From Candidatus Tectimicrobiota bacterium (GTDB taxonomy: Bacteria; JACPUC01): DNA of 64,000 nucleotides. The translations under genes and the position numbers were made by a program. The stretch lies in contig JACPUC010000025.1 in assembly GCA_016192455.1 (NCBI GenBank), positions 20,357 through 84,356 of the forward strand, in the 5' to 3' direction. Below the pieces are notes generated by a model. The model saw only the letters and a program-made list of their open reading frames with translations, was not told the DNA's origin and did not search any database. Positions 49,597 to 64,000 of the stretch are shown in pieces (within the stretch, counting starts at the first letter, position 1; every line of letters begins with the position of its first letter).

Positions 49597-50394
49597 TCAG
49601 GAGGCGGCGCCTTCGAGCAGCGCGCGCACGCGCTCCAGATCGGCAGGGGTGTCAACGCCGATGAGATCGAGCGGGCACGCCGGCACCTTGATGCGATAGC
49701 CGTGCTCCAGGGCCCTGAGCTGTTCGAGGCGCTCCAGGCGCTCCAGGGGCGTGCGAGGCAGGGTCACGAACTTCAGGAGGAACTCCCGCCGGTACCCATA
49801 GAGCCCCACATGTTTCCAGTAGCGCGGCTGCCCTTCGTCTTCGCCCACCTCGTGCAGGTCCCGCCGCGCCGCCGGGATCGGGGCGCGCGAGAAGTAGAGG
49901 GCGAAATCGCGCAGGTCGGTGACCACCTTCACCACGTTGGCATCGGCGACCTCGCCGGGGTCATGGAGCGGCACCCGAATGCTGCTCATCGGCAGCTCGG
50001 CATCGGCCAGCAGCGGGGCGAGGGCGGCGCGCACGGCAACCTCCTGGATGAGCGGCTCGTCCCCCTGGATGTTGACGATGAACTCCGCCTCCAGGTCCCG
50101 CGCGGCCTCGCCGAGGCGGTCGGTGCCGGTGGCGTGGTCGGCGCGCGTCATCACCACCTCGCCGCCGAAGGCCCGCACGGCATCGGCGATGCGCGCGTCA
50201 TCGGTGGCCACGAGGACGGCGTCGAGGCACGGCATGGCCGCGGCGCGCTCGTAGACGTGCTGGATCATCGGCTTGCCGGCCAGCCGGGCGAGCGGCTTGC
50301 CGGGAAGGCGACTGGAGTGGTAGCGCGCCGGGATGAGCGCCACGATGCGGCCGCGCGGCCCGCGATGCTCACCGGCGCGCGCGGGCTCCTTCAT
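49597..50394 (-). CDS. kdsB: CMP-Kdo synthetase
   Basis: 3-deoxy-manno-octulosonate cytidylyltransferase, activating Kdo for transfer to lipid A. About 265 residues: IPARYHSSRLPGKPLARL, VATDD, EVVMTRADHATGTDRL, NIQGDEPLI and the YGYRREFLL region are diagnostic. ATG at 50394 chosen; the open frame extends to 50460 but overlaps the preceding transferase gene. It lies between the sugar-phosphate transferase and pyrG. Confidence 0.95.
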   Translation of the reverse strand: MKEPARAGEHRGPRGRIVALIPARYHSSRLPGKPLARLAGKPMIQHVYERAAAMPCLDAVLVATDDARIADAVRAFGGEVVMTRADHATGTDRLGEAARDLEAEFIVNIQGDEPLIQEVAVRAALAPLLADAELPMSSIRVPLHDPGEVADANVVKVVTDLRDFALYFSRAPIPAARRDLHEVGEDEGQPRYWKHVGLYGYRREFLLKFVTLPRTPLERLERLEQLRALEHGYRIKVPACPLDLIGVDTPADLERVRALLEGAAS

Positions 50395-50449
50395 GGCCGA
50401 CGCCTCCAGCGCCGCGGCGGAGGGGCGGCGACCCTTTTCCTGGCTAAGC

Positions 50450-51862
50450 TCAGTAGGCATCGCGCGCGGCCAGGCAGCGCCATACCGTCATGGCGATGAT
50501 GCGCAGATCGAACCAGAGGGACCAGTGCTCGATGTAGTAGAGATCGTACGTAATGCGCCGTTCCAGCGAGGTGTTGCCGCGCCAGCCGTTGATCTGCGCC
50601 CAGCCGGTCATGCCGGACTTCACCTTGTGCCGCAGCATGTACTGGGGCACGAGCTGGCGGAACTTCTCCACGAAGACGGGCCGCTCCGGCCGCGGGCCGA
50701 CGATGCTCATCTCGCCCCGCAGCACGTTCATGAGCTGCGGCAGCTCATCAAGGCTGAAGCGGCGCAGCCAGGCGCCGACGCGCGTGCGGCGCTGATCGTC
50801 GGGGGTGGCCCACACCGCCCCCGTCGCCTCCTCGGCGCGCTCGCGCATGGAGCGGAACTTCAGCATCGTGAAGGTGGTGCCGTCGAGACCCATGCGCTCC
50901 TGGCGGTAGATGACGCGGCCGGGCGAGCTGAGCTTGATGGCGATGGCGATCACCCCAAAGAGCGGCGCCAGCAGCAGCAGGCCCAGCCCGGCCACGAGGA
51001 GATCGGCGAGGCGCTTCAGGAGGCGGCTCCAGCCGACCAGCGGCGTCTCCTGGAGATTGACGAAGGGGATGCCCTCGAACTCCTCGACGCTGCCGCGCAT
51101 GGTGCGGTACTGCAGGAGGTCCGGCGCCACGCGGATGTCCACCGGGGCGTCGCCGATGCTCCGCAGCACGCCCTCGATTCGCTCGTAGGCCTCCAGGGGC
51201 AGCGCGAGGATCACCTGATCGATCTGGAAGCGCTTCAGGAAGCTCCCCACCTCCTCGTAGGTGCCGAGCACCTCGATGGTGTCGACGAAGGTCTTCACTT
51301 TCTCCAGTCGGCGGGTGAAGAAGCCAACGATCTTGAAGCCGAGCTCGGGGTGGGCGTTCAGGCGCCGGGCGATCTCCCGCCCCAGCTTCCCGGCGCCGAC
51401 GATCACCACGTAGCGCAGGTTCATGCCGCGCCGCCGCATCTCTCGCAGCACCGCGCGGAAGGCCAGGCGATAAAGGCTCATGCCGCCCAGGCAGAGGACG
51501 CCGAAGAAGGCGAACGCCACGCGGGAGTAACTGTAGCGGCGGTCCAGGAAGGTCACCGCAAGGAGGGCCAGCATCCCCAAGCCGATCTGCCTCGTGAGGC
51601 TCGCAAGCTCGCGACCGATGCTGGTGGTGCGACGGGACTGGTACTGGTAGCCGTAGTGGAGCACCACCGCCCAGATCGGCACGAGGTAGATGAGCAGGTA
51701 GAGGTACTGCGCCAGCGGCGGGACCGTCTCCTCGGGGTGGAAGAGCGGCACAAGGGGCGTGGCGAAGCGCAGCTCGTAGGCGCCGATCCAGGCTCCCACC
51801 GCGATGAGGAGGTCCCCCAGAAACATCAGGGTAGAGAAGAACTGGCTGTGCTGGCGCAGCAT
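50450..51862 (-). CDS. undecaprenyl-phosphate glucose phosphotransferase-like (WcaJ/WbaP type)
   Basis: Polyprenyl-phosphate sugar-1-phosphate transferase that starts O-polysaccharide or exopolysaccharide chains on the lipid carrier. 470 residues: four N-terminal helices, a CoA/NAD-binding-like central domain ([17 protein letters not shown]), then the bacterial sugar transferase domain with [21 protein letters not shown] (core MLKFRSM), [22 protein letters not shown] (core [13 protein letters not shown]) and [17 protein letters not shown] (core SGMTGWAQ). Sugar specificity (glucose versus galactose) cannot be decided. In the operon it follows the large glycosyltransferase gene. Confidence 0.92.
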
Positions 51863-51902
51863 GGCGAGGCTCGCATGGCCCGCTCGGCATCACCCCGGCG
51901 CC

Positions 51903-54900
51903 TTAGCTGGCAGCCTGGGGCCGCCGGGCGCAGGCCAGGAGGTAAAGCTTCAGCGGCTGCCCGGGTCGCCAGTCGGTGAGGCGCTCCCACCACAACCCAA
52001 GCCGCAGGCTCGCACCGTTCATGACCATATAGTACGCAGTTCCGGGGTGCAGGGAAACTGTTATCTCATGGAACCCCGTCGCCGCCAGGAGGGACTGCAG
52101 TCTGCCGGGCCGATTAGCGCGGTAGAAGGTGGGATGCACCTCGGCGTCCCGGCGCTCGGTCAGGAGGCGCCGCGCCAGCCCGCGCTTCCATCGCAGCGGC
52201 AGAAGCCAGGAAGCAACCATGAGCGGATTGAGGAGGTTCGTCGTGAAGAGGAGACAGGCGCCGCCGGGGGCGAGGACGCGATACATCTCGGCGAGGCAGG
52301 CGCGGGGCCGCCGCAGGTGCTCCAGCACCATCAAGCCGGCGACGACGTGAAACGAGGCGTCGGCAAACGGCAGCCACGCAAGGTCCGCCTGCACCTGCAG
52401 CCGGCGGGGGTCTCCCACGGGCGAGGCGTCGGGGCGAGCCGCGCGGAGATGCCGCAATGCGGCCTCCGACGTGCCCGGGGAAGGCGCCAGGCCGGTCTCA
52501 GCAGGCCGCTCCAGATCAGCGCCGACGATGCAGGCTTCCTCCCCCAGCGCCTGCCGCAGGAACGGCGAGCCGCCGCAGCCGGCATCCAGGATGCGCTTCC
52601 CCCGCCCTAGTTCCTTCGACAGGTCTGCGAGCTGTCGATAGCAGGCGGCAAACGCCGGGCTTTCATGCCCGTACCTGGCGCGGTACCAGCTCCGCGCCCG
52701 TGCCGGCGGCGTTGCGCTCCACCGGCGAGGTGGAGTCGCGCGGCGCGGGGGAAAGGTGCCGGCAGCCCCTGGCGGAAACTGCGTGCGCGCCTGGCCGGGC
52801 GGCTCGTTGCCGCCTGACCGCCTCGACGGCCCGGGCAGCCCCGCCAGCTCATGGTACAGAGCCTCGAACGCCGCGGCCATGGCGGCAGGGTCCTGGAACG
52901 CCGCCACCCTGCGAACGGCGCGCTCCGCCATGCCGCGCGCCTGCTCCGGATCGGCGAGGAGCGCCGCGACGGCGGCCGCCATGGCCGACGCGTCGCCCCG
53001 CGGCACGATGCGTCCCTCGACGCCGTCGCGCAGGAGCCCCGCTTCGCCGACGCAGTCGGTCGCCACCACCGGCACTCTTCGGGCCATCGCTTCGAGGAGG
53101 ATGAACGGCAAGCCCTCCCAGCGCGACGGCAGCACGAAGAGGCTGCTGGCCGCAAGGATGTCGAGCGCATCGCGGCGGTAACCGAGCAGTCGAACGCTCC
53201 CCGTCAGGCGGGCGCGTTGGACTTGATCTTGCACCAGAGGCCGCAATGGACCATCCCCAATGATCAGGAAGCGCGCCATGGGGTAGCTGCGCAGGACCAG
53301 CGCGGCCGCCTCGACGAAGAGGGCGGGATTCTTCTGCTCGACGAGTCGCCCCACCATGGTGACCCAGGGAGCCTCGACGGCGCCGGACAGGTCCGCAGCG
53401 GCCTGGTCAAGCTCCCGCAGGAGCGACGCGCGCAGATGCCGGCGTTGCGCCGCCGAGACCTGGGGCGCGGCAGGAATGGTGTTGGGAATGAGGCGGAGGC
53501 CGTCAGGGCTCCGCAAGCCCGCCCGCAGGGCCTGCCGTCGCTCTCCTTCCGACTCGACCACGATCACCCCGCCGAGGCGCGCCGCAACACGCTCCATCTG
53601 CCGGTAGCGCCAGCCGGCTCCTCCACCCATGAGGAATGGGAAGGCGTGCGGCGAGTAGCAGAGCGGCACGCCGCTCACCAGGCCCGCCAGCCGGGCCAGC
53701 ATGCCGGCCTTGCTGCTGTGGGCATGGAGCACGTCGATCGGCTCGCGCCGCAGCAGGCGGAGCAGAGCCAGGAAGGCCCGCAGGTCATGCCAGGGCGACA
53801 CCGAGCGCACCATCGGCAGCGTGACATGCGGAATGCCGAGCCGGGCAAACCCTAGCGCGAAGGGCTCCTGCCGCTGGCGGCTCGCCTGGGAGAAGGCCGC
53901 CGAGGGAGGCGGCGAGCAAGCGCCGCTGACGGCGATGCGCCGCCGATCCAGAGCGCGGCTGAGGCTGAGGACGAACTTCTGCACGCCGCCGCCGTAGGGC
54001 TGGGCGATCTGCAGGAGACGCAGGCGGGGATCGCGGCGTCGGCTCGCCGGCAGGCGCCGATCCAGGCGCCGCTCCCGCAGGAGACGCGGCGTCTCCCGCA
54101 GCACCTGGCCGTAGACGCGCAGCAGATGGGGTGCGCGCAAGCAGGCATAGCCCAGGAGCAGGAGCTCCGCCGCCGCCAGCGCTGGGAGCTGCGCCAGAAC
54201 CTGCCCAGCCGTGCTGTTCCGCAGGATCGTCCGGTAGCGGTTGCGCATGACATGTTGCTGGAACGGCGCCGGCCGGCCGAAGAAGCGTTTCGTCCCCAGG
54301 GAGCCGCCGCGGGCGTGCCAGGCAACCGCCTGCGGCTGGTAGCGGAAGCGCCAGCCTCGGCGGCGCGCTCGCCAGCAGAGATCGAGGTCCTCGTAGAAGG
54401 CAACGTAGCGGCTGGGGAAAACGTCGCCGCGCGGGGCCACGTCGGCGAGCATGGCGCGCCGCAGGAGGGCCGCGGCGCAGCAGACGCCGAAGACCTCGCC
54501 GGCCTCCTCGAACTGGCCCGCATCCAGCGCCCCGGCGCCCCGGTCGCGGGCGAAGAACCCTGCCCCCAAGAAGAGGCCGGTCGAGTCGAGCCGCGGCGGG
54601 ATTCCCGCGGCCGCGCGGCCCCCCTCGGGCAGCCGCAGCAGCTTGCCGGTGGCGCCGCCGGCTTGGGGGTGGGCCTGCAGCTCATCGACGAGGTGTTCGA
54701 GGTAGTCCGGCGCCAGCACCACATCGGCGTTGAGGAGGCAGGCGAACTCTCCCCGCGCCTCCAGGAGGCCCTGGTTGTTGGCCGTGGCGAAGCCCTCGTT
54801 CACGGCGTTGCGGAGGCAGTGCGCCTCCGGTTGATGAGCGCGGACGAGGTCGAGCGAGCCGTCCTGCGAGCCGTTATCCACGACGATCAGCTCCCAGGAG

Positions 54901-55019
54901 GTGAACGTCTGCCCGCGCAGGCTCTCCACGAGGGCAGGAAGCCATCCGGCGCTGTTGAAGGTGACGAGCATGATGGAGACGCGCGGGGCGGCTGGCACGA
55001 GGTTGGCGGGAAGGCTCAT
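51903..55019 (-). CDS. three-domain fusion: GT2 + GT4 glycosyltransferase + methyltransferase
   Basis: Single frame of 1038 residues. Residues about 10-240 are a GT2 (GT-A) transferase: VSIMLVTFNSAGWLPALVESL, VVDNGSQDGS, LNADVVLAPDYLE and YEDLDLCWRARRRG. Residues about 335-745 are a GT4 (GT-B) transferase: YGGGVQKFVLSLSRAL, NTIPA, VGRLVEQKNPALFVEAA (core GRLVEQKNP) and PSRWEGLPFILLEAMA. Residues about 800-1038 are a class I SAM methyltransferase: ILDAGCGGSPFL, GLMVLEHLRRP and YRVLAPGGACLLFTTN. A hydrophobic stretch (ALAAAELLLLGYACLRAP) lies between the transferases, so it may associate with the membrane. Its ATG overlaps the epimerase stop (ATGA, 55016-55019). Probably adds two sugars and a methyl group to a repeat unit or its terminus. 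Confidence 0.88.
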   Translation of the reverse strand: MSLPANLVPAAPRVSIMLVTFNSAGWLPALVESLRGQTFTSWELIVVDNGSQDGSLDLVRAHQPEAHCLRNAVNEGFATANNQGLLEARGEFACLLNADVVLAPDYLEHLVDELQAHPQAGGATGKLLRLPEGGRAAAGIPPRLDSTGLFLGAGFFARDRGAGALDAGQFEEAGEVFGVCCAAALLRRAMLADVAPRGDVFPSRYVAFYEDLDLCWRARRRGWRFRYQPQAVAWHARGGSLGTKRFFGRPAPFQQHVMRNRYRTILRNSTAGQVLAQLPALAAAELLLLGYACLRAPHLLRVYGQVLRETPRLLRERRLDRRLPASRRRDPRLRLLQIAQPYGGGVQKFVLSLSRALDRRRIAVSGACSPPPSAAFSQASRQRQEPFALGFARLGIPHVTLPMVRSVSPWHDLRAFLALLRLLRREPIDVLHAHSSKAGMLARLAGLVSGVPLCYSPHAFPFLMGGGAGWRYRQMERVAARLGGVIVVESEGERRQALRAGLRSPDGLRLIPNTIPAAPQVSAAQRRHLRASLLRELDQAAADLSGAVEAPWVTMVGRLVEQKNPALFVEAAALVLRSYPMARFLIIGDGPLRPLVQDQVQRARLTGSVRLLGYRRDALDILAASSLFVLPSRWEGLPFILLEAMARRVPVVATDCVGEAGLLRDGVEGRIVPRGDASAMAAAVAALLADPEQARGMAERAVRRVAAFQDPAAMAAAFEALYHELAGLPGPSRRSGGNEPPGQARTQFPPGAAGTFPPRRATPPRRWSATPPARARSWYRARYGHESPAFAACYRQLADLSKELGRGKRILDAGCGGSPFLRQALGEEACIVGADLERPAETGLAPSPGTSEAALRHLRAARPDASPVGDPRRLQVQADLAWLPFADASFHVVAGLMVLEHLRRPRACLAEMYRVLAPGGACLLFTTNLLNPLMVASWLLPLRWKRGLARRLLTERRDAEVHPTFYRANRPGRLQSLLAATGFHEITVSLHPGTAYYMVMNGASLRLGLWWERLTDWRPGQPLKLYLLACARRPQAAS

Positions 55020-55963
55020 GGGCGGGGCGAGGTCTTGCGAATCCACTCCCACGTCATCGCCATCCCCTCTTCGAGGGAGACGCGGGGGGTCCAGTTGAGT
55101 TCCCGGCCGATGAGACGGGTATCGAGGATGCTCACCGGCACATCGAGCTTGCGCGCGGCGGTATGGCGGACATCGAGGTCAACCCCGGTGACCACCTGGA
55201 CGAGGCGCAGGAGCTCGCGCAGGGAGACGCCGCGTCCGCTCCCCACGTTGAAGATGCGCTGCGGCGAAGGGCTGTGGAGCGCCTTCACAAAGGCCTCGAT
55301 GACATCCCCGACGTAGAGGTAGTCGCGCGTTACCGAGCCGTCGCCCCAGATGATGATCGGCTCGCGGCTCCAAGCCCGCGCCAGGAAGACCGTCACCGCC
55401 CCCTGGGCGGCGTTCGGGTTCTGGCGCTCGCCGTAAGGGTTGGCGATGCGCAGGGAGCAGAAATCCAGGCCATGGAGATGGCGGTAGAGCACCAGGTACT
55501 TCTCGATCATGAGTTTCGAGATGCCGTAGGCACAGAAGGGGTTGGTGGGCGCTGACTCCGGAATCGGCACCTCGGTGGGCACGCCGTAGATCGTGCCGCC
55601 GGACGACGAGAAGACGATCTTGCGCACTCCCGCCTGCACCGCGGCATCGAGGAGGTGCAGCGTGGAAACGACGTTGGACTCCAGGTCATAGGCGGGGTTG
55701 TCGTTCGAGGTGCTCGGCAGCGTGGTGCTGATGAGGTGGAAGATGCAGGTCACCCCTTGAACAGCGGCAGACACCTCGGCAACGTTCGTGAAATCCCCCT
55801 CATAGAGCTCGACCTCGGCAAGGAGGTGCGCCACGTTGGCGGTATCGACGTGCTGACGGTCGAAGAGGCGCACGCGGTAGCCGGCGGCCAGCAGAGCCTC
55901 CGCCAGGTGCGAGCCCATGAAGCCGCAGCCACCAAGGATGAGACAGGTTTCCTGCTTCATCAT
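55016..55963 (-). CDS. NAD-dependent nucleotide-sugar epimerase/dehydratase (GalE-like)
   Basis: 315-residue short-chain dehydrogenase fold. N-terminal GGCGFMGSHLAEALL binds NAD, SSSGGTIYG contains the active Ser, and YGISKLMIEKYL has the YxxxK catalytic pair. NPYGERQNP and FNVGSGRGVSLRELL match UDP-glucose 4-epimerase relatives. It provides a nucleotide sugar for the polymer. The ATG at 55963 (or 55960) follows the GT4 gene by 21 bp, and its stop overlaps the next start. Confidence 0.9.
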   Translation of the reverse strand: MMKQETCLILGGCGFMGSHLAEALLAAGYRVRLFDRQHVDTANVAHLLAEVELYEGDFTNVAEVSAAVQGVTCIFHLISTTLPSTSNDNPAYDLESNVVSTLHLLDAAVQAGVRKIVFSSSGGTIYGVPTEVPIPESAPTNPFCAYGISKLMIEKYLVLYRHLHGLDFCSLRIANPYGERQNPNAAQGAVTVFLARAWSREPIIIWGDGSVTRDYLYVGDVIEAFVKALHSPSPQRIFNVGSGRGVSLRELLRLVQVVTGVDLDVRHTAARKLDVPVSILDTRLIGRELNWTPRVSLEEGMAMTWEWIRKTSPRP

Positions 55964-55984
55964 CCGCCCGCCGACGTCCCGGCC

Positions 55985-57409
55985 TCAGCGCTCGCCCGCC
56001 GCAGGCCGCGTGAACTCGTAGTAGGTCTTCTCGATCTCGGTGACGCTCTCGGCGATCGTCGCCACCGGCGCGATGTCGCGGCGCAGCCTCGGCAGAAGAT
56101 CGGCATCATCGATGACCTCCTGGAGGAGCGCCGCCAACCCCGCATGGTCGCCGCGCTCGAAGAGCAGGCCGTTGCCCTGGTGCACGATGAGCTCCGCCAA
56201 TCCTCCCACATTCGAAGCGATCACCGGCGTCTTCGTATCGAGCGCATGCAGGACGATGAGGGGCGAGTTCTCGTACCAGATGGAGGGGACGACCAGCACG
56301 TCGAGATCCTGCAGCACCCGCCCAACGTCCTCATTCGGAAACGAGCCGGCAAAGATGATGCCCGGGTCATCTCCGGCAAGCTCGCGCAGGTAGCGGGCAT
56401 ACTCCGGGAAGTGGCCGAGGTCGCCGTAGAGGCGCAGCGCCGCGCCCCGCCGCTGCCGCAGGGCCTTGAAGGCCTTGATGAGGACATGGGCGCCCTTGTG
56501 CTCGTAGAGGGTGCCGATGTAGCCGATCCGCCGTCCCCCGGCCGGAGTTTTGCCGGCGAAGGGGCGCGTCCAGGCGGCGTTGATGCCGAAGGGGAGCTTG
56601 CGGATGAGGCCGGCGCGGATGCCGTTCTCCACCAGGATGCCGCGCATCAGGTCGGTGGCCACGAAAATGCGCTGCACTTGGTTGAGCTGGCGCCGCAGGT
56701 AGCCGCGCCGATCGAGCATCGCCTTCAGGAGGTGCAGGCGCGGGTCCTCGTGGACGGGGAAGAAGCGGTGTCGCAGGGTGAAGAGCCCCAGGACGAAGTT
56801 GGACCGCCTGGCGATGGCGCGCCGAATATCCGCCGGCTGCGACTGGGCCACGCAGCAGCGCAGGCAGGAGACGCCGCTCCAGGTGGGGCCGCGGCAGAGC
56901 GACTGGTCATGACGCTTGAGCTGCGTGACCGGGCACACGAACCAGAAATCCGTGGCCGTGAAGATGCGTGGAATCCCCAAGGCCGCCACCGCTTCCAGCA
57001 CCGCTGCCGAGAGGCGATGGCAGTGCAGGAGGTGAACGATGTCCGGCTTCAGCTCGCGCGCGTACTCATGGACGTGTCGCAGCACGGCCTCGTTGCGGTA
57101 CTCATCGTAGCCTGGGTTCTCCCCAATTGCCGGGTGATGGTGGAAGCGCCGCACCGGCAGGCCATCGACCTGATCGCTGCTGAAGGGCTGCGATCGCGCC
57201 ACCCCCGGCGCGGCCGGCTCGGCGGCCAGGATGTGCACCTCGTGCCCGCGGCGCCGCAGCTCGCAGGCATACTCGTACGTCAAGATCTCCGTGCCCGAGA
57301 AATAGCGCGGCAGAAACTGGTGCACGGTCAGGAGAATCCGCACGGCAGGCCCCAACCTTCGTGTGACGCGTCGTCGGCGCGACATGCTGCCAGCGCGCGC
57401 CGCCGTCAC
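55985..57409 (-). CDS. GT4-family glycosyltransferase
   Basis: Retaining GT-B transferase of about 474 residues. N-terminal LTVHQFLPRYFSGTEILTYEYA (core FLPRYFSGTE), HLLHCHRLS; C-terminal IGYIGTLYEHKGAHVLI, FAGSFPNEDVGRVL and PSIWYENSPLIVLHAL with the catalytic E(x7)E-like segment. A Cys-rich insert (SLCRGPTWSGVSCLRCC) lies near residue 170; this occurs in some WcaI/RfaB-like relatives. GTG at 57409 overlaps the stop of the upstream gene as GTGA; an ATG at 57385 is an alternative. Confidence 0.88.
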   Translation of the reverse strand: MTAARAGSMSRRRRVTRRLGPAVRILLTVHQFLPRYFSGTEILTYEYACELRRRGHEVHILAAEPAAPGVARSQPFSSDQVDGLPVRRFHHHPAIGENPGYDEYRNEAVLRHVHEYARELKPDIVHLLHCHRLSAAVLEAVAALGIPRIFTATDFWFVCPVTQLKRHDQSLCRGPTWSGVSCLRCCVAQSQPADIRRAIARRSNFVLGLFTLRHRFFPVHEDPRLHLLKAMLDRRGYLRRQLNQVQRIFVATDLMRGILVENGIRAGLIRKLPFGINAAWTRPFAGKTPAGGRRIGYIGTLYEHKGAHVLIKAFKALRQRRGAALRLYGDLGHFPEYARYLRELAGDDPGIIFAGSFPNEDVGRVLQDLDVLVVPSIWYENSPLIVLHALDTKTPVIASNVGGLAELIVHQGNGLLFERGDHAGLAALLQEVIDDADLLPRLRRDIAPVATIAESVTEIEKTYYEFTRPAAGER

Positions 57410-59850
57410 CCTTGCGCGGCGCGACGAGCCCCGAGGCGTTGCAGCAGTCGAGCAAGACGGTGGCGGAGCTGGGCGTTGATCTGCTGCGCCTGCTGGCCGA
57501 TCACCTCAGCCTGGTGCAGGAGGTGGGCATCCTTCTGGGCCAGGGCGTGCTCGAGCCGGCGGAGCTGCTGGGTCAGCTCCTCATCGTGTTGCTGGAGGCG
57601 CTCGTAGTGACGCTGCAGGGTGACGAGCTCCACTTGCGCCAGGTGGCGCTGCTCGTTCAGCTCGTCAATCTTATCACGCATCGCCACGGCCTGGCTGTCG
57701 TACTTCTGGAGCTGCTCCTTGTACTGCTGCCCTTGCGCCTCGTAACTGCCGCGCTCCTCGCCGAACTGCTCCAACTGCTGCTGGTACTGCTGCGCCTGCT
57801 CCTGGTACCGCTGCATCTGCTCCTGGTACCAGGTGAACTGCTGCTCATAGGCGTGCGCCTCGCGCAGCAGGCGTTCCTCCAGCTTCACCTTCTCGATCTC
57901 GAGCTGGTGCGCATGCTCCTGCCAGCTCCGCCGATCGGCCATGACGCGCTCAACCTGCTGCTGGTGCGACTGAATGGTGGCGCGGTACTGGTTGGCGGAG
58001 CGGTCGAGGCGCTGCTGGTAGTCGCGCTCCTTCTCTTCCTGGAGCTGGAAATAGAAGAGAGACAGCATCGTCAGCACCGGCGAGAAGTCGAAGGGCTTCT
58101 CATGGGTGGTATGCACGAGGCGCTGCACGGCCGCATGCTGCGCCTGGCTGAGCGGCGCCTTGCTGACCAGGAGGAGCTGCCGGTAGTAGTGATCGCTGGC
58201 GTCAAGCGAAGGGCTCAGCTCATTAAGGAACCCCGTGAGCTTGCGTGAGACGTGGTTGAGCCTCGGGTTGGCATCAAGGTAGAAGTAGGCGCCCATGGTG
58301 AGGAGCCAGACGGTGAGCGGGGTGTTCGGGATGCGCACGAGATCGGCGGCCCCCTGGGAACCGAAGAACTCCTCCACCTCACCCACGGCCGGCAAGCCAT
58401 ACTGGGCGTGCTCGCCGAGGTAGCGATGGCTGGCGCGCGAACGGAACTTGATAAACTCCGAGAGGATCTCCTCCGCCTGGCTGACGGCGCGGCTCTCGAA
58501 GGGCCCGGCAATGATCACCTGCCGGCTGGCGACGCGCCAGAGTTCCGCCAGGAACGTCGGTCGTCTCTCCCGCTCCAGGTGCTCGAGGACATCCACGCTG
58601 GTCACGACATCGAACTCGCCCTCGGCATACGGCAGCGTCAGGCCGTCACCCACCACGGAATGCCGCGAATCAAACCCTTGCAGATCAATGACGGTCACCT
58701 GCTCCGCGGGGAGGAATCCCAGAATCTGCCCCGGGTAGCCCCCCACGTCCAGGACCCGTAGCGGGCGCTCCTCGTGGCAGCGCAGCAGCGTCACCGCTTC
58801 ACGTAGAGAGCGGTAGCGCTGGTACTGGTCGAAGGGGAGCTGCAGGTTGTGGCTGGCGAAGTCGCTGTAACTCGCGTCCACGCTGACGGCGAGCACGTCC
58901 ACGTGTTGGTACTCGCCCGCCAGCAGGGTGATCTCATGCCCGCCGGGGAGGACGGAGAACTCCGCCAGTCCGCGCTCGCCGCTCAGGTAGGCGACGCGCC
59001 GCTCATCCACGATGACCTGGAGGTCCTTGGCGAGCGCGAGGCGCAGCTCGAGCCGCACGGCGAGCGGTCGGTCGCCCTCGTTCAGGAGGTAGAGCGAGGC
59101 GCTCGTGGTGAAGGAGCGCGACCCCGACAAGGGCGACCAGCCTTGGCGCAGCACGCAGCGCAGATCAGGGTGCGCCACCGGCTGCAGGATATCGGCTTGG
59201 GCGCCGAAGTAGTCCTTGCCGAAGGCGGCAAGGAGCCGTTCACCGGTTTCTTCCAGCGGCGGCTTCAGCGCCAGCACCTCGAGGTTGTACTCCTCGGTAT
59301 GGAAGCGGAAGGCGCGGAGAAAGCCAAGGTCGCGCAGCCAGCCGAGCCAGGTGGAGGGCGGCCGCTCGGAGAAGTGGGTCTTCTCCGGGCGATGAAAGTG
59401 GAGCGGATCGGGCGTGCCCAAGAAGAAGAGACCTCCCGGCCGCAGGACCCGCCACGCCTCCCGCAGCATCGCCTGGGGCGTTTCGAGGTGCTCCGCGAGA
59501 TCGAACGCCGTCACCACGTCACAGCTCTCGGAGAACACCGGCAGCACCTCGGCCATGGCAAGGCCGAGCCTGCCGCGCAGCTCGGGGGTGTAGCGCAGGG
59601 CATAGTCGCTGACGTCCAGCCCGCAGGCTCGCATGCCGTGCGCCCGGGCTTCACCCACGAGGTAGCCGTGGGCGCAGCCGAGGTCGAGCCAGCGCAGGCC
59701 GTCGCCGCGCGCCTCGCGGATGAAGCGGAGGTAACCCTCCCAGGTGGGATGGGCGTGCTCGTACCCCTCCGCGGGGTAGCCGCTGTTGCTGCCGTGAAAG
59801 TAGCCCTCGTGGTACAGCCCCTGCCAGTCGGCGAAGCTCGTCCGAACCAT
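57406..59850 (-). CDS. double methyltransferase with C-terminal heptad coiled coil (WbdD-like architecture)
   Basis: 814 residues. First SAM methyltransferase at about 40-200 (LRWLDLGCAHGYLVGEA at 52-68, FDLAEHLETP, WRVLRPGGLFFLGTPD). A beta-rich linker domain spans about 225-345. A second methyltransferase-like domain lies at about 360-470 (VLDVGGYPG at 366-374, SVDVLEHLERE). A helical part follows, and a long coiled coil runs from about 605 to 805. Within the coil, residues 674-722 are seven contiguous heptads, each with Tyr or Phe at the second position (for example YQEQMQR, YQEQAQQ). In E. coli O9a the chain terminator WbdD is a methyltransferase-kinase whose coiled coil measures chain length; a kinase domain is not seen here. 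Role as terminator/ruler is inference. ATG 59850; stop overlaps the GT4 start. Confidence 0.85.
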   Translation of the reverse strand: MVRTSFADWQGLYHEGYFHGSNSGYPAEGYEHAHPTWEGYLRFIREARGDGLRWLDLGCAHGYLVGEARAHGMRACGLDVSDYALRYTPELRGRLGLAMAEVLPVFSESCDVVTAFDLAEHLETPQAMLREAWRVLRPGGLFFLGTPDPLHFHRPEKTHFSERPPSTWLGWLRDLGFLRAFRFHTEEYNLEVLALKPPLEETGERLLAAFGKDYFGAQADILQPVAHPDLRCVLRQGWSPLSGSRSFTTSASLYLLNEGDRPLAVRLELRLALAKDLQVIVDERRVAYLSGERGLAEFSVLPGGHEITLLAGEYQHVDVLAVSVDASYSDFASHNLQLPFDQYQRYRSLREAVTLLRCHEERPLRVLDVGGYPGQILGFLPAEQVTVIDLQGFDSRHSVVGDGLTLPYAEGEFDVVTSVDVLEHLERERRPTFLAELWRVASRQVIIAGPFESRAVSQAEEILSEFIKFRSRASHRYLGEHAQYGLPAVGEVEEFFGSQGAADLVRIPNTPLTVWLLTMGAYFYLDANPRLNHVSRKLTGFLNELSPSLDASDHYYRQLLLVSKAPLSQAQHAAVQRLVHTTHEKPFDFSPVLTMLSLFYFQLQEEKERDYQQRLDRSANQYRATIQSHQQQVERVMADRRSWQEHAHQLEIEKVKLEERLLREAHAYEQQFTWYQEQMQRYQEQAQQYQQQLEQFGEERGSYEAQGQQYKEQLQKYDSQAVAMRDKIDELNEQRHLAQVELVTLQRHYERLQQHDEELTQQLRRLEHALAQKDAHLLHQAEVIGQQAQQINAQLRHRLARLLQRLGARRAAQG
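57685..57831 (-). repeat. seven 21-bp units encoding the heptads
   Basis: 147 bp of imperfect 21-bp tandem units coding residues 674-722 of the double methyltransferase. The third-unit neighbours share runs such as CTGCTCCTGGTACC on the plus strand. The units are diverged but in register, so the array likely arose by internal duplication and could change copy number by slippage. Confidence 0.75.
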
Positions 59851-59876
59851 GGGAGCACCTTGTCGCGGCGCCTCAC

Positions 59877-61124
59877 CTAGCGGCGCGCGATGGCAATGAA
59901 CTGAGCCGGCAAGAGGGAATCGGCAAGCCCGGAGCCGCGGGGCAGGAGATGCTCGTTCAGGAGCGCGAAGAGTTGGCGCGTCCAGGCGGCCTCCGGGAAC
60001 GACCGGTGCACAAACAGGCTGAACGCCTGGAGGAGCGCCTGGGAGCTGGTTCCCTGCGGCGTGATCGTCACCTCGCGAAACGGCTGCAACAACAGACGCA
60101 GCCCCTGATCCGTGAAGCGCCAGAAATCGCGCGGGTAGTTGTGGACCTCCCAGACGAACGGCGCCGAGAGGTAGAGCGTGCCGCCGGGTTTCAGAACGCG
60201 GTGCATCTCCTCGACGAGCCCCTTGGGTTCCTCGACGTGCTCGAGGACCTGCGTGCTCAGCACCAGGGCGAAGCTGCCATCGGCGAACGGCAGCGGCCCC
60301 CGTGAGCTTACCAGGCAGTCGATGTTGGGATGGAGCTCGATATCGACGCCGATGTAGCGCCGCGTCCAGCCGGCGAAGATCGGGTAGTACGGCTTCTCTC
60401 CGCACCCCAGGTCGAGGATAGCATCGCCGGCGGTGAGCTGCAAGCGGTTGGCGAGCGCCAGGAGGTCCTGGCTGAGCCGGCTCAAGCTGAAGTAGCCGGG
60501 ATCGTCCAGGCTTGGCAGGCGGCGCGCCCGGCCTTGCCAGCTTGCGTAGAGCTCGCCGTCGATCGGCAGGCTGTAGCCGACGCAGGGCGCGCCCCAGAAG
60601 CTCCAGCAGTAGCTGTTCTCGCGGCCGCGGGTGTGGGTGGTAAGGACCAGGCAGACCGTGCGGCCGCCGAACCTGCCGAGATCAACCCGCGCCTGCACCC
60701 AGCGCGGCGCGAGCGCCTGCCGCTCGCCCGCGCCCGGCGGAATGCCGCGGCGGTTCGCGGCGGGGCGTTCGCCTGCCTCGCTGCCGCCGGCGGCCGCTTC
60801 GGCCGCCCCCGCCGACGCCGCGGGTCCCACGCAGCTTTGCCAGAGCAGCTCGCGCCCGCCCTCCGCTTCCACCCACAGCTCAAACCAGACGCCCCGCCCG
60901 CCCAGGTGCTGCCAGCAGCTCGGATCGAGGCCGCAGCCGACCTCCAGCCAGGCGTGCGGCGGCACGGCCAGGGTGAACGCCAGGCTGGCCGGCGGATGCG
61001 CGAAGATCGCCTGACGCTCGTCGCCGTCGATGCTGACGCGCTGCACCTTGATCGTCTCAAGGTAGCTCTCGCGCACTTCGGCGACCGGTAGTTCTTTGAT
61101 GAGATCGTAGCAGGTGACGTCCAC
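59877..61124 (-). CDS. methyltransferase with N-terminal beta-domain
   Basis: 415 residues. The C-terminal half is a class I SAM methyltransferase (AILDLGCGEKPYYPIFAGW, VLEHVEEPKGLVEEMHRVLKPGG (core LEHVEEPK), FWRFTDQGLRLLL). The N-terminal about 200 residues look like a beta-sandwich (SLAFTLAVPPHAWLEVGCG, GVWFELWVEAEGG, VCLVLTTHTRG) with a Gly/Ala-rich insert, perhaps sugar- or glycan-binding. GTG start at 61124. Likely modifies a sugar or chain end in the polysaccharide made by this operon. The fold of the N-terminal half is inferred, not recognised by motif. Confidence 0.8.
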   Translation of the reverse strand: MDVTCYDLIKELPVAEVRESYLETIKVQRVSIDGDERQAIFAHPPASLAFTLAVPPHAWLEVGCGLDPSCWQHLGGRGVWFELWVEAEGGRELLWQSCVGPAASAGAAEAAAGGSEAGERPAANRRGIPPGAGERQALAPRWVQARVDLGRFGGRTVCLVLTTHTRGRENSYCWSFWGAPCVGYSLPIDGELYASWQGRARRLPSLDDPGYFSLSRLSQDLLALANRLQLTAGDAILDLGCGEKPYYPIFAGWTRRYIGVDIELHPNIDCLVSSRGPLPFADGSFALVLSTQVLEHVEEPKGLVEEMHRVLKPGGTLYLSAPFVWEVHNYPRDFWRFTDQGLRLLLQPFREVTITPQGTSSQALLQAFSLFVHRSFPEAAWTRQLFALLNEHLLPRGSGLADSLLPAQFIAIARR

Positions 61125-61187
61125 CTCGGCCCCGTTCGGTCGTGTCGGTTCCTGTCGCGCCAGGCCGCTCCCCGCCCGCAGCCGCCG

Positions 61188-62150
61188 CTAGGCTCCCGCC
61201 TGCGGCACGCCGGAGGGAGGCGCCGGCGACCAGAAGCTGTCGAGGTAGCTCCAGCACCAGTACTGCTCGGGGAACCGTTTCACGTAGCGTTCAAAGACAT
61301 CCACGCTACCTTGGAAAAGCCACTCGATCTCTTGCGGATCGCCCGGCCGTTGGCTGGGGATGAGCGGGGGCTCGATGACCCCAACCTTGTGGTACAGCCC
61401 CTCGAGGTAGACGAAGAAGGGGACGATAGCTGCCCCGCGCAGCGAGGCGACGCGCGCAAAGCTCGTCTGCAGGAGCATGGAACCGCCCAGGAACTTCGCC
61501 GCGCGCCGGCGGCCGAGGGGACCGAGCTGGGCGTCCAGGACGATGATGACGGCATCGTTGCGCGCCAGGCTGCGGTAGACGGGCCGCAGGTAGGCGCCCA
61601 CCTGAATCTGCTCGCCGCCCATGTGGTCGAGGAGGCGCGCCGACTTGTAGCGGCAGTAGTGCACGATGGCGGGGTGGAGGTGCGTCGTATCAACAGAGAG
61701 GTCCTGGGTGAGCATGCTGAGGTGGTAGCCGAGCTTGCCGAGCGTGGCGGCCAGCAGGTCGAAGCGGCCGAAGTGCCCGGTGAGGAAGATGACGCCCTTG
61801 CCGCGCGCCAACGCTGCGTCCAGGTGCTCGAGGCCGTGGATGGTGAGGTAGGGCTGCCGCGCCCGCGGCCGCAGGCGGCGGTAGAGGAAGGTGTCGAGGT
61901 GCTCCACCGCCATCATGCCACAGTGCCGCTCGATGAATGCCTCCCGCTCGCGGAGGCTGAGACCGGCGCCGAACACCTGCCGCAGGTTGCGGCGCACCGC
62001 GGCGCGGTAGGCGCGGTCGAAGGGGTTGATGCCCGCCCGCGCCCAGCTCCGCACCGCCCCATGCGCCAGGCGCACCGGCAGCGAGGCGCAGCCGCGTGCG
62101 AAGAGGAAGTAGTAGGGCCACCCCAGCAGGTAGAGGAAGTCGCGGTGCAT
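61188..62150 (-). CDS. LpxL/HtrB-like lysophospholipid acyltransferase
   Basis: 320-residue member of the late lipid A acyltransferase family, peripheral on the inner membrane. Catalytic HX4D motif is HFGRFD (His126, Asp131), preceded by GKGVIFLTG; VIIVLDAQLGPLGRRRAAKFLGG (core LGRRRAAKFLGG) and AIVPFFVY follow. A hydrophobic N-terminus (FLYLLGWPYYFLFARG) anchors it. It would acylate Kdo-lipid A or a related acceptor. Encoded between the Wzt-type ATPase and methyltransferase genes, an uncommon place for this enzyme. ATG 62150. Confidence 0.88.
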   Translation of the reverse strand: MHRDFLYLLGWPYYFLFARGCASLPVRLAHGAVRSWARAGINPFDRAYRAAVRRNLRQVFGAGLSLREREAFIERHCGMMAVEHLDTFLYRRLRPRARQPYLTIHGLEHLDAALARGKGVIFLTGHFGRFDLLAATLGKLGYHLSMLTQDLSVDTTHLHPAIVHYCRYKSARLLDHMGGEQIQVGAYLRPVYRSLARNDAVIIVLDAQLGPLGRRRAAKFLGGSMLLQTSFARVASLRGAAIVPFFVYLEGLYHKVGVIEPPLIPSQRPGDPQEIEWLFQGSVDVFERYVKRFPEQYWCWSYLDSFWSPAPPSGVPQAGA

Positions 62151-62198
62151 CACCGGCGTGGACCTTCAGCCGCGCGCGCACGGAGGCGCTCGCGTCTC

Positions 62199-63404
62199 CT
62201 AAAGCTTCCAGACGTGCTCGAGGCGGCAGACGCCCACCTCCTTCGTGGCATGGCGGACCACGAAGGGGCAGACCTTCTCCGCCATGTCGTAGACGTGCAC
62301 CCCGGTATTGTCGAGGAGGAAGATGGTCAGGGCGTACTCTCCCGAGAGGATCTCGAGGCGCGGGAAGGCGAGCGATTTCTGTTGCACTCCCACCTCGGCG
62401 AGGGGCGGGTAGCCGTCAATCTCCGTACTCACGCCGTAGACCAGCGAGCCATCGTTGCGCACGATGACCACCGCCAGCACCGGCGCGTACGCCGCGTCGA
62501 AGACCTCGAACGCCACCTCCACCTGGAAGCTGTCGCCGTAGGCGACCTCCTGGGCGGCCTGCGTGGGGCTCCCTCCGCCTTTCGAGATGCGGATGTCGCG
62601 CAGGGCCGGATGGTGGTGCGGCCGCGCCGGAGCCTGGTTCGCCACCAACGCCGCCTCGCCGGTCTCCTTCACATCGAGGCTGCGCTGGTAGTCCACGTAG
62701 GCGTCAACGACGGCGTCGGCCGCGCCGAAGCCACGCAGCCTGCCTGCGTCGATCCACGCCACCTGATCGCAAATCTGCTTGAGTTGCCAGGTGTTGTGGG
62801 AGCAGAAGAGGATCGTCTTGCCCCTCGCCTTGAAGCTCAGGATCTTATCGACGCACTTCTTCTGGAAATGCTGGTCCCCGACAGAGATGACTTCATCAAT
62901 CATCAGGATGTCGGGATCAAGGAGGGTCGTCACCGAGAAGCCGAGGCGCAGGAACATTCCGGTGGAGTAGATTTTCACCGGCTGCTCCATGAAGGCCCCA
63001 AGCTCCGAGAAGTCGACGATCTCCTGGTACCTCGATTCGATCTCCCGCGGCGACAGGCCGAGGATGGCGCCGTTCATGAAGACGTTCGCCCGGCCGCTGA
63101 ACTCCGGGTGAAACCCCATGCCGAGGTCGAAGAGCGTGGCGATGCGCCCCTCCCGGCGCACGCGGCCGCTCGTCGGCTGCATGATGCCGGCGAGAATTTG
63201 CAGCAGCGTGCTCTTGCCGGCCCCGTTGGCGCCGACTATCCCGAGCGTCGTCCCTTTCGCCGTCTGGAAGGAGATGTCGCGCAGGGCCCAGAGATCCTGA
63301 TGCAGCACCCGCCGTCCAAAGGAGACCGCCTCCCTGAGGCGATCCGCGGGTCGCCGGTAAAGGGCGAACCTCTTGCTCACCTGCGTTACTTCGATGGCCA
63401 GCAA
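62199..63404 (-). CDS. wzt: Wzt-type O-polysaccharide ABC ATPase with C-terminal glycan-recognition domain
   Basis: 401 residues. The nucleotide-binding domain (about 1-245) has Walker A GANGAGKST (58-66), the Wzt/TagH-type signature YSTGMFLRLGFSV and Walker B ILMIDEVISVGD, with the switch His in CSHNTWQL. Residues about 265-401 form a beta-sandwich-like extension, as in E. coli O9a Wzt, where it recognises the terminal modification of the finished chain. TTG start at 63404 supported by GAGGAG 6 bases upstream and no other near start. The permease partner Wzm is not encoded next to it. First gene of the long operon. Confidence 0.88.
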   Translation of the reverse strand: MLAIEVTQVSKRFALYRRPADRLREAVSFGRRVLHQDLWALRDISFQTAKGTTLGIVGANGAGKSTLLQILAGIMQPTSGRVRREGRIATLFDLGMGFHPEFSGRANVFMNGAILGLSPREIESRYQEIVDFSELGAFMEQPVKIYSTGMFLRLGFSVTTLLDPDILMIDEVISVGDQHFQKKCVDKILSFKARGKTILFCSHNTWQLKQICDQVAWIDAGRLRGFGAADAVVDAYVDYQRSLDVKETGEAALVANQAPARPHHHPALRDIRISKGGGSPTQAAQEVAYGDSFQVEVAFEVFDAAYAPVLAVVIVRNDGSLVYGVSTEIDGYPPLAEVGVQQKSLAFPRLEILSGEYALTIFLLDNTGVHVYDMAEKVCPFVVRHATKEVGVCRLEHVWKL

Positions 63405-63911: not shown

Positions 63912-63938
63912 TGACGCAACACTAGTACTACTGTGTCA
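63912..63938. promoter_or_regulatory. imperfect 27-bp palindrome, possible operator
   Basis: TGAC...TAGTAC...GTCA dyad: 18 of 27 positions match the reverse complement, with ACTAGTACTA near the centre. It lies about 510 bp upstream of the wzt start. It may be a regulator site or the end of a mobile element cut by the window edge. Confidence 0.25.
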
Positions 63939-64000
63939 TAAGATTCATCCCGCCCGTGTCTCGCGGCCGCACCCGAGACAGGGGTGGCGGCGGAGCAGGG

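Follow-up and report, generated by a model that had tools for sequence, protein, structure and literature searches.

We propose that P0001, an 814-residue protein encoded on the minus strand of the window (57406-59850, ATG start), where the window is the whole 64,000-nucleotide stretch of DNA analyzed, probably terminates and, as a ruler, sizes the chains of a surface glycan that depends on an ABC transporter, most plausibly LPS O-antigen. The proposal draws on the sequence of P0001 and of its neighbors: its catalytic domains are joined to an extended coiled coil, a Wzt protein with a cap-binding domain is encoded in the same operon, and a wzm gene lies on what appears to be the adjoining contig. 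The measurement of surface sugar chain length is known in detail for a few enteric coiled-coil terminators, and P0001 would add to these, far outside the enterobacteria, a terminator with a new combination of domains. The genome to which the window belongs encodes LpxC and hence is expected to make LPS. It has no relative below domain rank among the genomes compared, suggesting that it is deep-branching.

P0001 consists of a first methyltransferase domain (MT1; residues 8-215, 59206-59829), a conserved beta-rich domain (residues 216-334, 58849-59205), a second methyltransferase domain (MT2; residues 335-570, 58141-58848) and a helical coiled-coil tail (residues 590-813, 57412-58083). The original prediction of two methyltransferase domains in an 814-residue protein is borne out by the open reading frame and by two Methyltransf_11 stretches in the Pfam scan (E = 5.7e-26). 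Both domains belong to the class I SAM methyltransferases and have their motifs intact, WLDLGCAHGY in the Methyltransf_11 domain MT1, and VLDVGG and D.LEH in MT2. The SAM cores of the two are related, yet the domains fall into separate subfamilies marked by the signatures GYFHG..SGY (MT1) and FDxYQRY (MT2). Among solved structures, the top matches of the methyltransferase profiles include sugar O-methyltransferases (6uv6; 3bus, which we take to be RebM), over the SAM core only. Pfam and NCBIfam scans found no kinase family in P0001. The beta domain between MT1 and MT2, which the original prediction did not contain, gave nothing beyond noise in Pfam or PDB. A role in holding the substrate is plausible by analogy, as an additional, CBM-like beta domain is present in Klebsiella O7 ORF6.

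The tail is matched by FPP and SMC coiled-coil profiles over residues 605-806, and the hydrophobic period of 3.5 over residues 600-806 lies above all 2000 shuffles. Aromatic residues recur at positions 668, 675, 682, 689, 696, 703, 710, and 717 (YYYYFYYY) with a spacing of exactly 7, and this ladder of eight aromatics was reached by 0 of 20,000 shuffles. The corresponding in-register heptads occupy 57700-57849, and the DNA has a 21-bp tandem period (57700-57842). The ladder had been described as seven heptads with an aromatic at a fixed position; the fixed register stands and the count is eight. The best-fitting register places the aromatics at core position d. This disfavors, if not decisively, a surface glycan-binding strip, which we had considered as a role for the ladder. 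The AlphaFold model of P0001 is shallow, with a single relative (L041) as the only extra sequence, and its methyltransferase and beta part is too poor for use (pLDDT about 30). The coiled coil had been expected to be continuous in a predicted structure, and the modeled tail is indeed helical over residues 590-813, but it is split into two helices (590-697 and 704-813) by one Gly-rich break at 698-703, where the pLDDT is about 57-79. The helical tail spans ~220 residues, and the C-terminal end of the coil is basic and amphipathic.

Variation of the tail among close relatives fits a ruler. In L077, L078, and L079, close relatives of one another from an unrelated bacterial class, the catalytic halves are 87-97% identical over 600 residues without gaps, while the tails differ by indels of 21, 35, 7, and 3 residues. 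Three of the four indels are thus whole heptads, as expected if coil length is free but the register must hold, and the comparison of heptad number between relatives, proposed with the original prediction, turns out in its favor as far as sequence goes. Coil length seems to be a variable that mostly preserves the register, with the 3-residue indel as the one exception. Since rulers that differ by 3, 1, or 5 heptads are here attached to nearly identical enzymes, these proteins offer a natural test of the ruler model without engineering. Tails of family f144 carry an in-register HxxN ladder instead, which spans several hundred residues and reaches up to 14 copies in a single register (L074:6661-9783). 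This ladder may represent polar layers in the coil core or a ligand ladder.

P0001 is part of a tight minus-strand operon, with spacings of -37 to +63 bp, that runs from wzt through a kdsB-like gene at 49597. The wzt gene (62199-63404) is followed by a gene for an LpxL/HtrB-like acyltransferase (Lip_A_acyltrans; 61188-62153), by a third methyltransferase gene, whose 415-residue product combines a jelly-roll-like N-terminal module with a methyltransferase (59877-61124), and by the P0001 gene. The next gene encodes a GT4 glycosyltransferase (55985-57409), overlaps the P0001 gene by 4 bp and is a partner kept in relatives. Further downstream are genes for a GalE-like, NAD-dependent sugar epimerase (55016-55963), a GT2-GT4-methyltransferase fusion with probable polymerase or adaptor glycosyltransferases (51903-55052), a WcaJ-type undecaprenyl-phosphate glucose-1-phosphate transferase for initiation (50450-51862) and the kdsB-like gene (CMP-Kdo synthetase; 49597-50460), which overlaps wcaJ by 11 bp. 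Beyond it come a pyrG-like and a kdsA-like gene with wider spacing; the names kdsB, pyrG, and kdsA come from reading the sequences by eye rather than from a family search. The Pfam scan confirmed the third methyltransferase and the fused one, both of which had been noticed before.

The Wzt protein, an ABC ATPase with a C-terminal carbohydrate-binding domain, has the glycan-recognition domain that had been assigned to it: Wzt_C (PF14524) scores 48.1 bits (E = 1.6e-12) against a curated cut-off of 30.4. Its best solved match, the Wzt of Aquifex aeolicus (8dku), aligns nearly end to end (residues 3-395, E = 8.5e-69) and is the closest solved Wzt. In Aquifex, Wzm/Wzt reads a 3-O-methyl cap and the Wzt domain binds 3-O-methyl-mannose (PMC9445017). 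Seven side chains of the Aquifex cap pocket were compared (Ile299, Leu300, Asn313, Thr346, Ala348, His350, and Trp362), and the window Wzt keeps only Thr346. Hence, the pocket has diverged, and the end group is probably different from 3-O-methyl-mannose. In the Wzt proteins of f144, Asn313 and Thr346 are mostly kept and a DHWER stretch is shared.

A polysaccharide permease gene (wzm) is found neither before wzt nor elsewhere in the window. The window ends where contig C28 ends, in the end of an insertion sequence (IS; 63923-64000), and contig C7 opens directly with a wzm gene that points towards C28. The terminal repeat of the IS is present on the two contig ends, and we infer a gene order wzm-IS-wzt across the assembly gap. 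The repeat was dropped as proof of the join because the same IS end occurs on three contig ends; the join therefore rests mostly on the complementary orphan wzm and wzt genes. The terminal repeat, TAGTACTACTGTGTCATAA, is flanked by CTAG and lies at the wzm stop codon (63923-64000; L006:1-144), and IS copies with this repeat interrupt the assembly at several contig ends. The same genome has a second locus with wzm and a Wzt_C-type wzt (L122; G000:C6:186000-204000), with its own glycosyltransferases and a methyltransferase match just behind wzt.

Full-length relatives of P0001 occur in 2 of 386 other genomes (G281 and G143, both of family f144) at 31-33% identity, and the full MT1-beta-MT2-coil architecture thereby recurs in another, unrelated bacterial class. 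In the class of f144, matches at E ≤ 1e-40 are present in 10 of 14 genomes. A search of genome contigs with P0001 returned one MT2 relative (L041), and no relative was found in viral contigs. Nine loci could be assessed for their neighborhood (the window, L042, L043, L074, L075, L076, L078, L079, and L080), with L077 and L081, which lie at contig ends, left out of the count. The wzt gene is located at most two ORFs upstream of the terminator gene in all assessable loci but one, the exception being a full-length relative without nearby wzt (L078), and a GT4 gene is the next gene after the terminator in 9/9. Within f144, no wzm was seen close to the wzt-terminator-GT4 trio. One relative (L081) has no coil. 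That the protein is again found beside wzt in a distant class, and that coil lengths change mostly in heptad steps, supports the central claim of the original prediction, namely a role in chain termination in which a coiled coil is the ruler and Wzt the reader. In genus g333, a radical SAM gene is found directly upstream of the double methyltransferase (L079:10472-11521, L078:7311-8615), and in L079 it sits between wzt and the double methyltransferase.

MT2 belongs to a broader family, with matches at E ≤ 1e-30 in 21 of the 386 genomes. MT2 alone, joined to a coil, is encoded immediately after wzm-wzt in L041 (Planctomycetota) and in L048, from a further lineage, so that MT1 looks like the added part of P0001. 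In L049, wzm-wzt, an MT1-like gene, a GT2 gene and MT2 form a single run. The Planctomycetota protein (L041:6024-8765), from a metagenome-assembled genome, has a coil of ~650 residues with extended internal repeats that are almost identical (~110 aa as judged by eye). Homologs of MT2 are also encoded where wzt is missing, for instance beside GT4 or radical SAM genes (L044 and L045), and MT2 alone is thus no proof of termination. A different variant is present in G390, where a methyltransferase sharing the motif EIHDYPGDHWRYS with the third methyltransferase of the window is fused ahead of MT1-beta-MT2-coil, and yet another methyltransferase gene lies between this triple fusion and wzt. This fusion ties the third methyltransferase of the window to the terminator. 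The triple methyltransferase fusion (L080:8248-11742, 1164 aa), behind wzt and the further methyltransferase gene, has a tail of ~410 residues.

How P0001 might work can be outlined from these components. The WcaJ-type transferase would start the chain on undecaprenyl phosphate, and the GT2 and GT4 proteins would lengthen it at the membrane. With its basic and amphipathic character, the C-terminal end of the coil could provide a membrane seat near the polymerase, with which it may make contact. From there, the coil would keep both methyltransferases at a distance of about 30 nm, such that only long chains would be methylated. Methylation would cap the terminal sugar, possibly with two methyl groups, and capping would stop growth. 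The Wzt C-terminal domain would then recognize the capped end, leading to export by Wzm/Wzt. The third methyltransferase (59877-61124) probably contributes to this end-group chemistry as well. The end group, which the original prediction took to be possibly methyl-based and new, would likely bear one methyl group or possibly two.

P0001 might instead be a single-methyl terminator like E. coli O8 WbdD, in which only one methyltransferase, probably MT2, would make the cap, and MT1 would be accessory, serve as a scaffold or act on the penultimate sugar. This is a serious alternative, even if we do not expect it to be true: MT2 alone with a coil is found behind wzm-wzt, and MT1 of G390 has lost the N-terminal signature and much of motif I and looks degenerate. 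However, the SAM motif and the signature of MT1 are intact in the window and in all aligned relatives except G390 (42-49% identity), and two distant lineages both retain the double form. With both domains active, P0001 and its relatives might constitute a separate terminator lineage, in which two methyltransferase domains (three in one relative) act in series on one chain end to give a multiply O-methylated cap, a diverged Wzt pocket serves as the reader, and the ruler evolves by whole heptads with an in-register ladder (Tyr here, His-x-x-Asn in relatives). We advance this scheme only tentatively. Should the two domains indeed modify one and the same end, the known end groups would be extended by a cap with several methyl groups and by a new binding specificity of Wzt.

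The methyltransferases might instead decorate sugars inside the repeat unit, with the coil as a scaffold of the polymerase complex and chain length set otherwise. Further methyltransferases of the operon (the third methyltransferase and the GT2-GT4-methyltransferase fusion) could be such backbone enzymes, and MT2 homologs are found in loci without wzt. We nevertheless consider backbone methylation unlikely given the recurrent wzt neighborhood, the presence of Wzt_C and a coil length that varies mostly in heptad steps. Moreover, an extended coiled coil is a mark of terminators in the ABC-transporter pathway (PMC11231755).

As a putative terminator, P0001 resembles WbdD, both of E. coli O9a and Klebsiella O3 and in its methyl-only form in O8/O5, in having an N-terminal methyltransferase and a long C-terminal coiled coil. 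As in WbdD systems, the operon goes with Wzm/Wzt, Wzt has a cap-binding domain, and length control by the coil is expected. In contrast to WbdD of O9a/O3, which is built as methyltransferase-kinase-coiled coil, P0001 has a beta domain and a second, different methyltransferase in place of a kinase, and its methyltransferase-plus-coil core is of the FDxYQRY family. Orthology with WbdD was rejected because neither a sequence or profile match nor a kinase was found, and no chain named WbdD was among the PDB matches listed for P0001 and A1 or among the best 60 of 77 for A4. The suggestion that the kinase had been replaced by a second methyltransferase finds no support in this form: sequence and profile comparisons gave no WbdD similarity, and MT2-plus-coil is a more widespread unit that exists alone.

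Coiled-coil terminators are widespread, their catalytic modules vary, and examples include those of Klebsiella O4 and O7 (PMC11231755). Klebsiella O7 ORF6 (PMC11231755) likewise combines a methyltransferase, a second catalytic domain, an extra beta domain and a coiled coil, and the closest structure of its methyltransferase, CgnL (7pd7), also matches MT1 of P0001. However, the second domain of ORF6 is a kinase and polymerase glycosyltransferases follow its coil, whereas P0001 has a second methyltransferase, a beta domain between the methyltransferases and glycosyltransferases encoded as separate genes. Methyl-only caps are known from E. coli O8 WbdD (PMC3482155) and from Geobacillus WsaE, which adds a 2-O-methyl group (PMC2943079). 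WsaE shares with the window system a methyl-only termination for which Wzt is the predicted reader and a methyltransferase module tied to glycosyltransferases, but in WsaE the methyltransferase is fused to them. In the open literature, with subscription journals mostly outside the search, we found no description of a two-methyltransferase coiled-coil terminator. We know of no double-methyltransferase coiled-coil protein in Rhizobium etli CE3, which we liken to the window system by its sugar and not by its enzymes. The terminal 2,3,4-tri-O-methylfucose of its O-antigen is a precedent for a multiply O-methylated terminal sugar (PMC4153317). Hence, the class itself is already known as regards coiled-coil terminators, methyl-only caps and a tri-O-methylated terminal sugar. 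New here are the joining of two (in one case three) methyltransferase domains, the occurrence of this composition in distant lineages and the natural length variants in heptad units.

That P0001 is a terminating Kdo transferase dependent on CMP-Kdo, in the manner of Klebsiella O4 ORF7 (GT137), is very improbable. The kdsB-like gene overlapping the operon and the kdsA-like gene directly downstream could point to it, but such genes also belong to the ordinary set for core LPS. GT137 shares the outline of P0001, two methyltransferase-resembling Rossmann-like domains followed by a coiled coil (PMC11231755), but ORF7 of O4 gave no domain prediction and is set apart by this description, whereas both P0001 domains have canonical SAM motifs and strong Methyltransf_11 scores.

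Two further observations concern the genes between wzt and P0001. The LpxL/HtrB-like acyltransferase gene (61188-62153) occupies an unusual site, inside a polysaccharide operon between wzt and the methyltransferases. The N-terminal ~200 aa of the third methyltransferase (59877-61124) form a beta module with the signature GD.R...aHPPs...W...fC.a.W, over which no Pfam family was found in this protein. The module is shared with GT4 proteins of relatives and a B12-radical-SAM protein (further sites at L042:8476-10272, L045:10849-12831, and L044:12071-15958) and is likely a carbohydrate-binding module.
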